DNA of 52,293 nt from Nitrospira sp. (GTDB taxonomy: Bacteria; Nitrospirota; Nitrospiria; Nitrospirales; Nitrospiraceae). The translations under genes and the position numbers were made by a program. The notes beneath the pieces were generated by a model. It worked only from the letters and a program-made list of their open reading frames with translations. It did no database searches and was not told the DNA's origin. Below are positions 40,850 to 47,558 of the stretch, in pieces (position 1 is the stretch's first letter; each line of letters begins with the position of its first letter). The stretch lies in the NCBI GenBank assembly GCA_029881435.1, contig JAOUMR010000015.1, positions 1 to 52,293 of the forward strand. Reading direction: 5' to 3'.

Positions 40850-41863
40850 ATGTTAGCCTGGTCTCGCCCTGATCCACTCACACGCGATCTCATCCATCTT
40901 ATCAATGCTCGTCGGCACGATCATGGCGATACGGATGATGCAATCGATACCCTGCAAGCATTTCTTGAACAGGGACGTGAGCACGATCTTCTGACAGTGC
41001 TTGCTGCGCTCGATGAAGAAATGGCGGAATGGCTGTTCGATCTCGTGGCAGAGGCGAGTTGCACGCTGCTGCTGGATGGGGAGAACGATGACAAGCCTAC
41101 GTACGCGACGATCGCGGCCTTGGAGTTGCCTCTGCAGGCGAACCTGACCTCTCCGCTCAAGCTCAAGATCGATCCTATTGCGACTGCTGATCTCCTGCAT
41201 CGGAATCTGCAACTTCCTGCCGGAACGGTCGTTCGTGTCGAGTCACGACTCTTGACTGATGCCACATTGGAGATGTTAAACCTCCAGATGTTCCATGACC
41301 ACCTGGTGACGGTCACCGATTCACGGCGTGCGCAGTCAGTGGCGGCCCGGCTTCTTCCTCCTGTTGAGAATACCGCGTTTCTCTTGTTTGAACTGATGGG
41401 GGCGCCCGATCCGGGGTTGCCCGACTCATGGGAAGACCATCAGCGCCGAGAAATTCTCGACGGCCTGGTCAAGCAATGTCCGGAGTTGGCGTGTGCGCCG
41501 GATACGATCGAGGCACCGGTGTATGCCGCCTATGCCATGTTTGACGCACAGAATGCGGTACGGCTGCATCACTTGGCCGATGAAACCGCTGCCGTGTGGA
41601 GAGAGCTGGATCCGCTGGTGAGGTCCCGCACCATCGTGCATCTCCATACGCAATGTGGAAATGGGGTGTATATGCCTGTATGGACCGACCTGTTCGATCC
41701 GGAGCTCCCGGAAGAGCACGGTCCGGTCTGGACTTCTCCGGACGTCTGGGTCTTTACGGCTGATCTGCCGATTGAATGGCCTGGCGAAATGTTAACCAAT
41801 CGGTTACTGGCAGAAGGGTGCACCCGGTTCGAGAATCATATCGTCGAAACCCCGGACAACTAA
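40850..41863 (+). CDS. Unrecognised cytoplasmic protein
   Basis: A 337-residue protein, start ATG after GGGAGCCGCA. No signal peptide or membrane segment. It is acidic, helical in its first third (an LLTVLAALDEEMAEWLFDLV stretch) and mixed later, with a notable Trp/Asp-rich part near the C-terminus (TSPDVWVFTAD). I do not recognise its family. It is alone on the plus strand between YjbQ and the Cys-rich gene. Confidence 0.6.
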   Translation: MLAWSRPDPLTRDLIHLINARRHDHGDTDDAIDTLQAFLEQGREHDLLTVLAALDEEMAEWLFDLVAEASCTLLLDGENDDKPTYATIAALELPLQANLTSPLKLKIDPIATADLLHRNLQLPAGTVVRVESRLLTDATLEMLNLQMFHDHLVTVTDSRRAQSVAARLLPPVENTAFLLFELMGAPDPGLPDSWEDHQRREILDGLVKQCPELACAPDTIEAPVYAAYAMFDAQNAVRLHHLADETAAVWRELDPLVRSRTIVHLHTQCGNGVYMPVWTDLFDPELPEEHGPVWTSPDVWVFTADLPIEWPGEMLTNRLLAEGCTRFENHIVETPDN

Positions 41864-44125: not shown

Positions 44126-44974
44126 TTATCCTCGAGCCACAAGGTCTTTCATTTTCGGAAGCAGCGAAGTCGGAATATGAAGGGAACCCTTGCCGATGCC
44201 GACTTCAATGTCGGGTTTGGTGAGACCATGAAAATCGCTGCCACCGGTCACGAGCAGGCCGAGTTGTTGAGCGAGACTCAGATATTCTCGAGTCTGCCGT
44301 GCAGCATGAGTGCTGTAGTAGACTTCCACGCCATCGAGTCCGTCCGCTTTCAGCTGGCGAACCAGCTCGGCAAGCGATCGATCTGCACACCTCACCCAAG
44401 TCGGATGGGCTAGTACGGCGAGGCCTCCCGCTGCCTTGATCCAATGAATCGCTTCAACTGGGGCGGGGAGATCGCGAGGCACGTAAGCTGGTTTTCCATC
44501 GGCCAGAAATCGATCGAACGCCTCTTTAGCTGACGAGACGATTCCCTTGTCCATAAGGGCACGAGCAATATGTGGTCGGCCGACTGAGTCGCTGCCGGCT
44601 AGGGCGCGGACTTCTTCGTAGGTGAGATCGATGCCGAGATTCTGCAGCTGTTCGACGATTTTGGGATTGCGACGGTGGCGACTGTCCCGCAAGGTCTTGA
44701 GTCGCTTATTCAAGTCAATGTCCTCCCAATCGAGAAAGTATCCAAGAATATGTACCTCGGAATTGCCGAAGCTCGAGCTGATCTCGACTCCGGGAATCAC
44801 CTCAATCCCACACGCCTCTCCTGCGGTCATGGCTTCCACGAGTCCGGTCGTGATGTCGTGATCGGTAATCGCCATGGCTGTGACCCCGACACGGTGCGCG
44901 AGTCCAACCACCTCCGTCGGTGTACAGCTTCCATCAGAGTGAGTGGTGTGGAGGTGTAAGTCCAAGCGGCTCAT
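44126..44974 (-). CDS. PHP-domain phosphoesterase (RNase AM/YciV type)
   Basis: The 282-residue enzyme starts with MSRLDLHLHTTHSDGSCTP and has ITDHDITTG, EVIPGVEIS, LAHPTW and GGSDFHG, all metal-ligand motifs of the PHP family. The length and motifs fit the YciV/RNase AM group, which acts on 3',5'-bisphosphates and short RNA 5' ends. Its ATG overlaps the stop of the FolB-methyltransferase gene by 4 bp, indicating coupling. Confidence 0.9.
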   Translation of the reverse strand: MSRLDLHLHTTHSDGSCTPTEVVGLAHRVGVTAMAITDHDITTGLVEAMTAGEACGIEVIPGVEISSSFGNSEVHILGYFLDWEDIDLNKRLKTLRDSRHRRNPKIVEQLQNLGIDLTYEEVRALAGSDSVGRPHIARALMDKGIVSSAKEAFDRFLADGKPAYVPRDLPAPVEAIHWIKAAGGLAVLAHPTWVRCADRSLAELVRQLKADGLDGVEVYYSTHAARQTREYLSLAQQLGLLVTGGSDFHGLTKPDIEVGIGKGSLHIPTSLLPKMKDLVARG

Positions 44975-45912
44975 GACGAAATCTCGCTCGCGAGAGGCTT
45001 CTGTGCAACAAGTTGTGCGGTATAGACCGACTCTCCACCGCGTTGGCCTTCGTGAGGCCCTTCATCGTAATGCACGATACGAAGGCCAGAGCTGAGGTCG
45101 ATGAGTTCGTTGTGCGCAAGGCAAAACTCCTTGCGTTTGGGGTGTTGATGCTGGAAGTGGTTATCGATGAGGAAGGTTTCATACAGCAACATACCGCCGG
45201 GCTTCAACGCATCGATCAGGCAGGGAAAGAGTGGACGAGTCAGATAAAAGAACACGAGTATGACATTGTAGGCCTCTTGTCCGATATTCGCCTTCGTTGG
45301 TGGAGGCGGTTCCAGATTCATCGTCTGTGTTGTGATCCCTGTGAGGTTCCGCGCATGAGCCGTTGACGATAGCTGCGCCAGTGCCTGGACATCGTGATCG
45401 ATCGCGTCAACCTGGTAGCCCTGCGAGGCAAGGAACAGTGCGTGACGTCCGGTGCCGGACGCGACATCGAGGACCTTGCCTTTGGGAAGACGAGGAAGCT
45501 GCTGGATAAGAAAGTGGGAAGGGGATGGATCTGCGCGAAGCAATCGGTGCGCCTGCCTGGTACGCTCTAGGGTAACACCGACCGATTTGGTCACATGGAT
45601 GAGAGGGGGGTGAAGCTTTCGGAGCCAGAGCTTCGCACGATCGACCGGAAACTCATCGAAGAGCGCGGCCAGAAACCGTTCAGCCATGGTCTCCAATAGA
45701 TGAGCATCGTGACAAGTTCCAAGTTCTATTATGCGCTGCGCCACTGACGCATAGTCGACCGTTCGTTGAAGGTCATCGGAGAGTCCAGCTGGCTCAAGGT
45801 GACAATCTAATTCCAGATCGACGGCTAATGGCTGTGGCCGTGCACGTTCATCGGGCGTCACGCCACAGCGACCGCGAAACTCAAGTTGCTCGATGATGAT
45901 CTGTCCACTCAT
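44971..45912 (-). CDS. Dihydroneopterin aldolase-methyltransferase fusion
   Basis: The 313-residue product has FolB in its first ~118 residues (IIIEQLEFRGRCGVTPDERA, VDYASV, HLLETMAERFL and LRKLHPP with the conserved Lys), followed by a class I SAM methyltransferase (GKVLDVASGTGRHALFLA, ALKPGGMLLYETF), similar to TehB-type enzymes. The FolB half makes 6-hydroxymethyldihydropterin in folate biosynthesis; the role of the methyltransferase is unknown. The frame is continuous with no sign of error. Coupled to the PHP gene. Confidence 0.85.
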   Translation of the reverse strand: MSGQIIIEQLEFRGRCGVTPDERARPQPLAVDLELDCHLEPAGLSDDLQRTVDYASVAQRIIELGTCHDAHLLETMAERFLAALFDEFPVDRAKLWLRKLHPPLIHVTKSVGVTLERTRQAHRLLRADPSPSHFLIQQLPRLPKGKVLDVASGTGRHALFLASQGYQVDAIDHDVQALAQLSSTAHARNLTGITTQTMNLEPPPPTKANIGQEAYNVILVFFYLTRPLFPCLIDALKPGGMLLYETFLIDNHFQHQHPKRKEFCLAHNELIDLSSGLRIVHYDEGPHEGQRGGESVYTAQLVAQKPLASEISS

Positions 45913-46004
45913 GTGGGTATTGTCGAAGATCGTCTTTCAGCCTGTCAAGCGAGGGTCGCGGAGGGAAGAGAGGATGCAGGGCGGAACAGTGTCGGGCGGG
46001 CGTG

Positions 46005-47558
46005 CTACACGAAGTATCGGCTCGTGTCGAATTTATGCTCGATATTGTCGATCAACCGCATGATGCTGTGTCGGTAGTCACCGACGTCGTCTTTTTCCGT
46101 CAGATCAAGCTCCGGTCCGTTGTCGATAGGATTGCCTTGCTCATCGGTGATGAGTTTGACGACCGGACGTTCGCTCTGGGTCTTATCGGTGGCGGGTTTG
46201 AGGACAACGGCAAATTCTTCAGAATCAAGGACCACGAGACTCCCGATAGGAATAATGCCGACGCAATTGACAAAGAGCTTGAGGAGTGTCGCGTCAAAGC
46301 TCTTTCCGGATTTGCCGGACATGATGCTCAAGACTTTCGAGGGAGACATCGGTTCACGACGATAGACGCGAGAGGACGTCATGGCATCGTAGCAATCCGC
46401 AATCGTCAGAATGCGACCAGTCAACGAGAGTTTCCACGGCGTCTTGAGTTTGGGATAACCTGAATAGTCCAGATTCATATGGTGTTCGAACGACGCGGCG
46501 GCCATGCGGGCGGGGAGATTCGTAATCCCGCGTAACTGAGTCAAGCTGAGGACGCCTTCCACTGGATGATTGCGCATTGCTGCCCATTCATCTTCTGTAA
46601 ACTCTCCCGGTTTATTGAGGACCTCGAGCGGGATATTGGATTTCCCCATATCATGGAAAAGAGCCGCCAATCCCAGATTGGCTAGCTCAACCTTTTCATA
46701 TCCAGCTCTGTTTGCAAGGGCGATGGAGAGGAGTGCGACATTGACGGAATGATTATGGGTATATTGGTCGTGACAGCGGAGTGTGGTGAGACCCAACAGG
46801 ACCGGCTCGTCCTGCATCATCAGGTCGATGATATTTTGGATGGCGCGTTTGGCATGTTTGAAACTGAGGCCCTTGCCTTCACGCGCAGATTGAGTCAGGG
46901 TACCAACCGCGTCGGCGGCTTTTCCATAGGCCGCTTTTGACCGTGCCTTGTGCCGCAACTTGGAGTTTCCATCCCCCGCCAGGTCTTCGCGCAGGTTTAG
47001 TTGCCGGGGATCGTTGATGTCGATGGTCGCGACGCCGAGTTTCTTGAGTTCTGTCCTGAAGTCGTCGAGCGACATTGTGGTCGGGTCGAGGCTGACGAAC
47101 AAATGGGCAAACTCTCGAATATCGTTGGACGAAACAGACGGCGAGAACGTGAGACCCCCGATTCTCCACTTCCGAAATGAATCGATGATGCTTGAGACAA
47201 CCAGCATTTGTTGCGAGGTCACCTTCAGATGCTGTTTGCCGAGAAAAAGAAAATCATCCTGGAGCCACAAGGTGACCGGTTGATCGTGTGCCAGTGTCTC
47301 AATGAGAGTCAGCATTGCCTCGACGGGCTTGTCGAGAGCCGCATTGGCACGACCGTGAATTTTCGACGTCTTGATTAAGGTGTTGAGCTGCGTGATGAGC
47401 TGAAAGCCCAGCATCACCAACTGCTGGCCGAGAATATCGTCGGCTTCCGATCCTTGGCCAATCTTTTGTGAGAGGGACTTTTCGTGTGTGAGAATCGGTT
47501 GGATCGTATCTGTTTTAGTCGGATGCTGTTGCTGTGATCTTGTCTTAGGTCCGCTCAC
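46005..47558 (-). CDS. HD-GYP domain protein
   Basis: The 517-residue protein (GTG start, AGGAG upstream) has an unrecognised N-terminal half (about 1-250) and an HD-GYP domain: HDQYTHNHSVNVALLS, FHDMGKSNIPLEVLNKPG, NHPVEG, EHHMNLDYSGYP and ADCYDAMTSSR. HD-GYP enzymes hydrolyse cyclic di-GMP. The ligands and GYP motif are intact. It follows the HEAT-repeat gene on the same strand with 12 bp between them, so it belongs to its operon. Confidence 0.92.
   Translation of the reverse strand: MSGPKTRSQQQHPTKTDTIQPILTHEKSLSQKIGQGSEADDILGQQLVMLGFQLITQLNTLIKTSKIHGRANAALDKPVEAMLTLIETLAHDQPVTLWLQDDFLFLGKQHLKVTSQQMLVVSSIIDSFRKWRIGGLTFSPSVSSNDIREFAHLFVSLDPTTMSLDDFRTELKKLGVATIDINDPRQLNLREDLAGDGNSKLRHKARSKAAYGKAADAVGTLTQSAREGKGLSFKHAKRAIQNIIDLMMQDEPVLLGLTTLRCHDQYTHNHSVNVALLSIALANRAGYEKVELANLGLAALFHDMGKSNIPLEVLNKPGEFTEDEWAAMRNHPVEGVLSLTQLRGITNLPARMAAASFEHHMNLDYSGYPKLKTPWKLSLTGRILTIADCYDAMTSSRVYRREPMSPSKVLSIMSGKSGKSFDATLLKLFVNCVGIIPIGSLVVLDSEEFAVVLKPATDKTQSERPVVKLITDEQGNPIDNGPELDLTEKDDVGDYRHSIMRLIDNIEHKFDTSRYFV

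Follow-up and report, generated by a model that had tools for sequence, protein, structure and literature searches.

The window analysed here, which comprises 52,293 nucleotides of a Nitrospira sp. genome (G000), contains a gene whose product joins a dihydroneopterin aldolase (FolB) domain to a class I SAM-dependent methyltransferase domain (Table 1). The open reading frame extends without interruption from the ATG at 45912 to the TGA at 44971-44973 and has 313 codons. The Pfam FolB model (PF02152) matched with an E-value of 1.8e-26 and 93.3 bits, as compared to a cut-off of 31.8, and the TehB model (PF03848) matched residues 144-285 with an E-value of 6.5e-13 and 49 bits, as compared to a cut-off of 20.4. 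Since both domains exceed the curated Pfam cut-offs and lie in a single intact reading frame, the fusion put forward in the original prediction is borne out. The protein also passed the NCBIfam folB model TIGR00525 (83.1 bits, cut-off 72.15), and no match to an HPPK domain was obtained in the Pfam search at E-values up to 1. The description of the second domain as TehB-like holds at the superfamily level, on the basis of PF03848, the fold and the SAM motif, but not at the level of TehB equivalogs, given that the scores obtained with the three NCBIfam equivalog models (50.7, 48.1 and 43.8 bits) did not reach the respective cut-offs of 303, 218 and 219.5. The region between alignment positions 117 and 133, where the linker is located, is 15 residues long in 53 of 72 sequences and ranges from 12 to 20.

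Table 1. Features of the fused gene and of its surroundings (coordinates refer to the window).
Feature	Coordinates	Strand	Basis or remark
Fused FolB and class I SAM methyltransferase gene	44971..45912	-	ORF, Pfam, NCBIfam, order-wide search
FolB (dihydroneopterin aldolase) domain, residues 5-116; E22, Y54, E74, K99	45565..45900	-	Pfam, conservation
Linker, residues 117-129	45526..45564	-	Alignment
Class I methyltransferase domain, residues 130-306, TehB/Slr1183-like fold	44995..45525	-	Pfam, profile search, AlphaFold2, fold matches
SAM-binding glycine motif, residues 148-158	45439..45471	-	Sequence, conservation
PHP-domain phosphoesterase gene	44126..44974	-	Start overlaps the fused-gene stop by 4 bases (ATGA)
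HD-domain gene	46005..47558	-	Upstream, same strand, 92 bases from the fused gene; outside the fusion
Promoter-like site, 10 of 12	45919..45948	-	Directly upstream of the fused-gene start

The PHP-domain gene and the fused gene are likely carried on the same transcript. As judged by alignment, the two genes share 4 bases in 60 of the 82 fused locus rows, in which some genes appear twice, and a PHP gene lies on the same strand within -14 to +162 bases in 70 rows; the other 12 gave no PHP match in the available bases. When the PHP protein of the window was compared to family models, the top one was a 3',5'-nucleoside bisphosphate phosphatase, whose score of 236.9 bits is below the cut-off of 400. 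The HD-domain gene is a possible operon neighbour. The promoter-like site is no evidence by itself, since 5 sites of this kind were found in the region with respect to 3.3 expected. Of the 21 clustered loci of the order (the window and L084-L103), 14 encode close to the fused gene a 337-aa protein with no Pfam match, which is located at 40850-41863 (+) in the window.

Distribution and origin of the fusion

When 59 genomes of the order, including that of the window, were searched with the whole protein, a match spanning at least residues 4-286 was found in 55, and each of these 55 carriers gave exactly one FolB match, always inside the fused gene. One stop codon was counted in six matches: in G035, G042, G048, G055 and G058 it is the terminal one, preceded by a frame of 297-311 aa, and in G057 the reported open frame has 338 codons. 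Among 198 genomes sampled evenly across the phylum, the fusion was present in all 56 members of the order listed, and no open-frame match across both domains was found in the other 142 genomes; the 62 genomes that gave no match at all were taken to lie outside the order, because the 20 genomes of this kind that are named all lie outside it. In G069, where the FolB frame has just 123 codons, the match extends from residue 2 to 174 and crosses two stop codons. The fusion was also found in three loci of a named collection, whose titles are Nitrospira sp. ACE_NIT10, Nitrospirae bacterium CR_Sed_300A_bin.33 and Nitrospirales bacterium RBC_NOB5; one of the three is truncated where its contig ends. 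From these titles, and from the grouping of the first with the window protein (see below), we infer that the order carrying the fusion is Nitrospirales and that the phylum is Nitrospirota.

The same fusion, which the original prediction had proposed to look for in relatives, is therefore found in 55 of the 59 genomes of the order. It also stands against the objection that relatives might have two separate genes, joined in the window by a frameshift: separate FolB and methyltransferase genes were seen outside the order only, for example in G226, where they lie on the same contig about 216 kb apart, and in none of the 59 genomes of the order. A frameshift or an assembly artefact is ruled out by these 55 genomes together with the 56 order members of the phylum sample.

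The four genomes of the order in which the fused gene was not found are G017, G019, G027 and G047, the first of which is 99% complete. The PHP gene gave no match in G017, G019 and G027, and was present in G047; the gene corresponding to window positions 40850-41863 was also absent from G017 and G027, and was found in G019 as two overlapping pieces. This suggests, most simply, that an assembly segment is missing in G017 and G027.

A comparison with the rest of the phylum bears on the possibility that two housekeeping genes were joined by chance and that shared expression is the sole link between them. The distance observed in G226 indicates that the ancestral genes were unlinked, and FolB is not among the recurring neighbours of the stand-alone methyltransferase (see below), both of which agree with a neutral fusion. 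However, split genes were seen in none of the 59 genomes of the order, whereas a fusion without value should readily come apart, and we consider a purely neutral origin quite unlikely.

As for other FolB fusions in the phylum, 44 of the 47 FolB frames outside the order have at most 212 codons, and the longer ones belong to G203, G142 and G131. In G203 (L223:162-932 (+)), the FolB domain is preceded in frame by a Nudix-like domain and followed by an overlapping DHPS-like frame, as read by eye, so that this frame may represent a FolQ-FolB fusion. No second domain was recognisable by eye in the long FolB frame of G142.

A quick tree was built from 75 methyltransferase rows, 26 fused and 49 alone. 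The fused rows were 23 of 72 distinct fused sequences and the three from the named collection; the unfused ones came from loci where ORF picking located the gene (75 of the 94 tried), leaving out rows shorter than 120 aa and, above L125, the odd-numbered loci. In this tree, which has SH-aLRT support only, a midpoint root and four end branches flagged as long, a single branch (SH-aLRT 95) separated all 26 fused rows from the rest and was nested in a Nitrospirota group (SH-aLRT 99), and the Nitrospira sp. ACE_NIT10 sequence grouped with the window protein. The simplest reading of this topology would be one fusion event, using a methyltransferase that the phylum already possessed, and vertical inheritance thereafter. 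When the window gene was compared to that of L042, dN and dS were 0.068 and 0.306 for the FolB half and 0.046 and 0.404 for the methyltransferase half. Because dN is low relative to dS in this pair, both halves appear to evolve under purifying selection. The values for five pairs at greater distance, with dS from 0.73 to 1.86 and one not computable, are less reliable.

The FolB half and the folate pathway

The conservation analysis was carried out on 72 distinct fused sequences, drawn from 80 fused loci. In the FolB half, E22, Y54, E74 and K99, which we take to be catalytic or substrate-binding residues, are invariant in all 72, and a comparison by eye places them at matching positions of the 5f3m alignment. 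The fused protein resembles FolB enzymes (PF02152, TIGR00525), of which 3o1k, 5f3m and 8su7 are among the solved relatives, in that both model cut-offs are exceeded and the active-site residues are kept; it differs from them in the C-terminal methyltransferase.

FolE, FolP and FolC were found in all seven genomes tested, G000 included, and the FolK of G000 is encoded on another contig by a separate gene, which overlaps a gene that reads by eye as panC. The fused protein is the sole FolB-type enzyme seen in G000. Considering the family, the intact active site, the sole copy and the presence of the other pathway genes, we infer that the FolB half is the housekeeping dihydroneopterin aldolase of the organism. 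A passage of PMC1971073 proposes a transaldolase-type substitute for FolB, named FolB2.

Two PTPS genes are present in G000, one directly upstream of folE and the second with two domains (L207:3690-4900 (+), L214:3058-3810 (+)), and both contain the motif CxxxxxHGH, as read by eye. According to the relevant passage of PMC5041015, this motif is of the PTPS-II type, and the motif of PTPS-III, an enzyme that bypasses FolB, is ExxHGH. On this basis, redundancy of FolB through PTPS-III was ruled out for G000. The PTPS motifs of G017 are the same, not those of type III, and PTPS-III was likewise rejected as the reason for the absence of the fused gene in that genome. The PTPS-II-type motifs of G000, which are those of tetrahydropterin-type enzymes, suggest that other pterins may be made in the lineage.

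The fused gene adjoins moaC, moaE and moaA in 10 of 24 loci (L088, L089, L091, L092, L094, L095, L096, L100, L102 and L103), which represent three of the order's four families. At these loci moaC is encoded on the opposite strand and points away from the fused gene; accD comes next in five of them and folC in three. The arrangement is absent from the window itself. The fused gene was probably once located in a pterin-gene neighbourhood, and this supports a function of the FolB half in the folate pathway. The same neighbourhood, including accD, speaks in favour of a different view of the whole protein, namely that it is a pterin-modifying enzyme in which the substrate or product of the FolB domain, or the tetrahydropterin of the cell, would be methylated to give a methylated pterin. 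The physical fusion maintained across the order and the PTPS-II-type gene beside folE in G000 point in the same direction. We nevertheless regard pterin modification as unlikely, for reasons that come from the methyltransferase half (see below).

The original prediction was right in considering this fusion unusual. The published FolB partners encountered here are other folate enzymes: FolK in Bifidobacterium longum (PMC1971073), FolK-FolP (PMC4224340) and apparently FolQ, a table of PMC1971073 seeming to mark FolB and FolQ as fused for Parachlamydia. No mention of a FolB-methyltransferase fusion was found in searches of the open-access literature. Similarly to the published fusions, the Nitrospirales protein has FolB and a second enzyme in a single chain; differently from them, its partner is no known folate-pathway enzyme and FolK is separate in G000.

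The methyltransferase half and its possible role

The AlphaFold2 model of the methyltransferase half gave means of pLDDT, calculated on blocks of 10 residues, of 90-98 for residues 131-310. The FolB half was modelled poorly, with pLDDT under 50 across much of residues 1-125, and just three further rows, of which one was partial, covered it. The closest solved folds of the methyltransferase half (model residues 123-308) are those of Slr1183 and TehB, in line with the profile search: the superposition with 3mer gave a Z score of 23.7 and an rmsd of 1.7 over 167 residues, and that with 2xva a Z score of 22.8 and an rmsd of 2.6 over 174 residues. The fold is therefore shared with TehB and Slr1183 (2xva, 2xvm, 3m70, 3mer), whereas identity to these structures in the fold-match rows is just 24-29%, the TehB equivalog cut-offs are missed and the fused protein has its own signature around YETFLID, EFC and NEL. 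The C-terminal half probably functions as a SAM-dependent methyltransferase and would belong to a TehB/Slr1183-like family.

In the SAM motif, L148, D149, A151, G155 and R156 were conserved in 72 of 72 fused sequences and G153 in 71; E201, Y223, R226, E245, T246, F247, P258, F263, C264, E269 and L270 were also invariant. Folate and SAM metabolism are linked, and a conserved SAM motif would be expected if the methyltransferase domain acted as a SAM sensor that tunes FolB and hence the supply of folate. The residues from Y223 to L270, however, lie beyond the SAM motif, and several of the invariant residues are common to the stand-alone orthologues, which fits a catalytic pocket more than a mere sensor; we therefore consider SAM sensing highly improbable.

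Among the best 80 of 464 relatives, taken as loci of the named collection, 77 are unfused, and their locus titles include Chloroflexi, Planctomycetes, Acidobacteria, Nitrospina, Campylobacterales, Proteobacteria and others. FolB was found in the flank of none of these 77 loci, which are 3-12.5 kb long with uneven flanks and were searched with a FolB model that was built from the fused sequences of the order and may miss distant FolB proteins. An adjacency of the two genes that could represent a precursor of the fusion was not seen in this set. The recurring neighbours of the stand-alone methyltransferase, namely prmA (from Pfam) and dapA-like and polyamine-like genes (by eye), are each confined to single lineages. 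The stand-alone methyltransferases of Nitrospirota (e.g. L064, L068 and L104) share 34-45% identity with the window domain (11 rows) and fall in the same tree group; they differ in being unfused and in having no FolB seen in the flank. In another Nitrospirota family, the stand-alone gene overlaps the end of prmA, which encodes the ribosomal protein L11 methyltransferase (L066:453-1824 and L068:5990-7379 (+)), so that two methyltransferase genes form a tandem; prmA adjoins in 5 loci. A plasmid search with the methyltransferase domain gave 31 records, mostly from halophilic archaea and TehB-like genes, the best with about 36% identity.

Outside the order, 22 genomes of the phylum sample contain a lone methyltransferase with a score of at least 60 bits. 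FolB was found in 15 of these 22 genomes as compared to 32 of the 120 without it (Fisher p 3e-4, kinship not corrected), and since kinship was not corrected this co-occurrence is weak evidence for a link. Together with the moa adjacency, it would fit a pterin-related substrate. On the other hand, seven of the 22 genomes gave no FolB match (one of the seven being just 71% complete), which suggests that the methyltransferase is independent of FolB. This, the 77 unfused loci and the differences in gene neighbours between lineages are what makes pterin modification unlikely. The original prediction had proposed either a modified pterin or regulation by SAM, and no result supports this proposal: the methyltransferase stands alone in many phyla, with FolB in the flanks of none of the 77 unfused loci and with variable neighbours. 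A methylated pterin or a SAM control is possible and not strongly indicated by these findings.

The explanation towards which we lean, as reasonably probable, is that an ordinary folate aldolase was joined, in one ancient event in the ancestor of Nitrospirales, to a methyltransferase that keeps its own substrate, probably not a pterin. The resulting protein would be bifunctional. The FolB half would cleave 7,8-dihydroneopterin to 6-hydroxymethyl-7,8-dihydropterin for folate, and the methyltransferase half would retain the small-molecule substrate of the stand-alone orthologues. FolB enzymes form oligomers, and the benefit of the fusion might be co-expression, perhaps with display of the methyltransferase on the FolB oligomer. 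Both enzymes of the fusion are very likely functional. The neutral fusion discussed above is close to this preferred explanation, the sole difference being that it claims no benefit.

A more speculative idea, to which we give little credence, is that Nitrospirales make a methylated pterin or a modified folate precursor. FolB would pass hydroxymethyldihydropterin or tetrahydropterins to the methyltransferase, the PHP protein would dephosphorylate dihydroneopterin phosphates, and the ATGA-linked pair of genes would represent a compact pterin-processing module.

In this order, which includes nitrite oxidisers, the FolB-methyltransferase fusion offers a clue to a widespread methyltransferase family and raises the question of modified pterins in these bacteria. 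If the methyltransferase is unrelated to pterins, the protein would be a clear case of two enzymes from unrelated pathways being stably fused.
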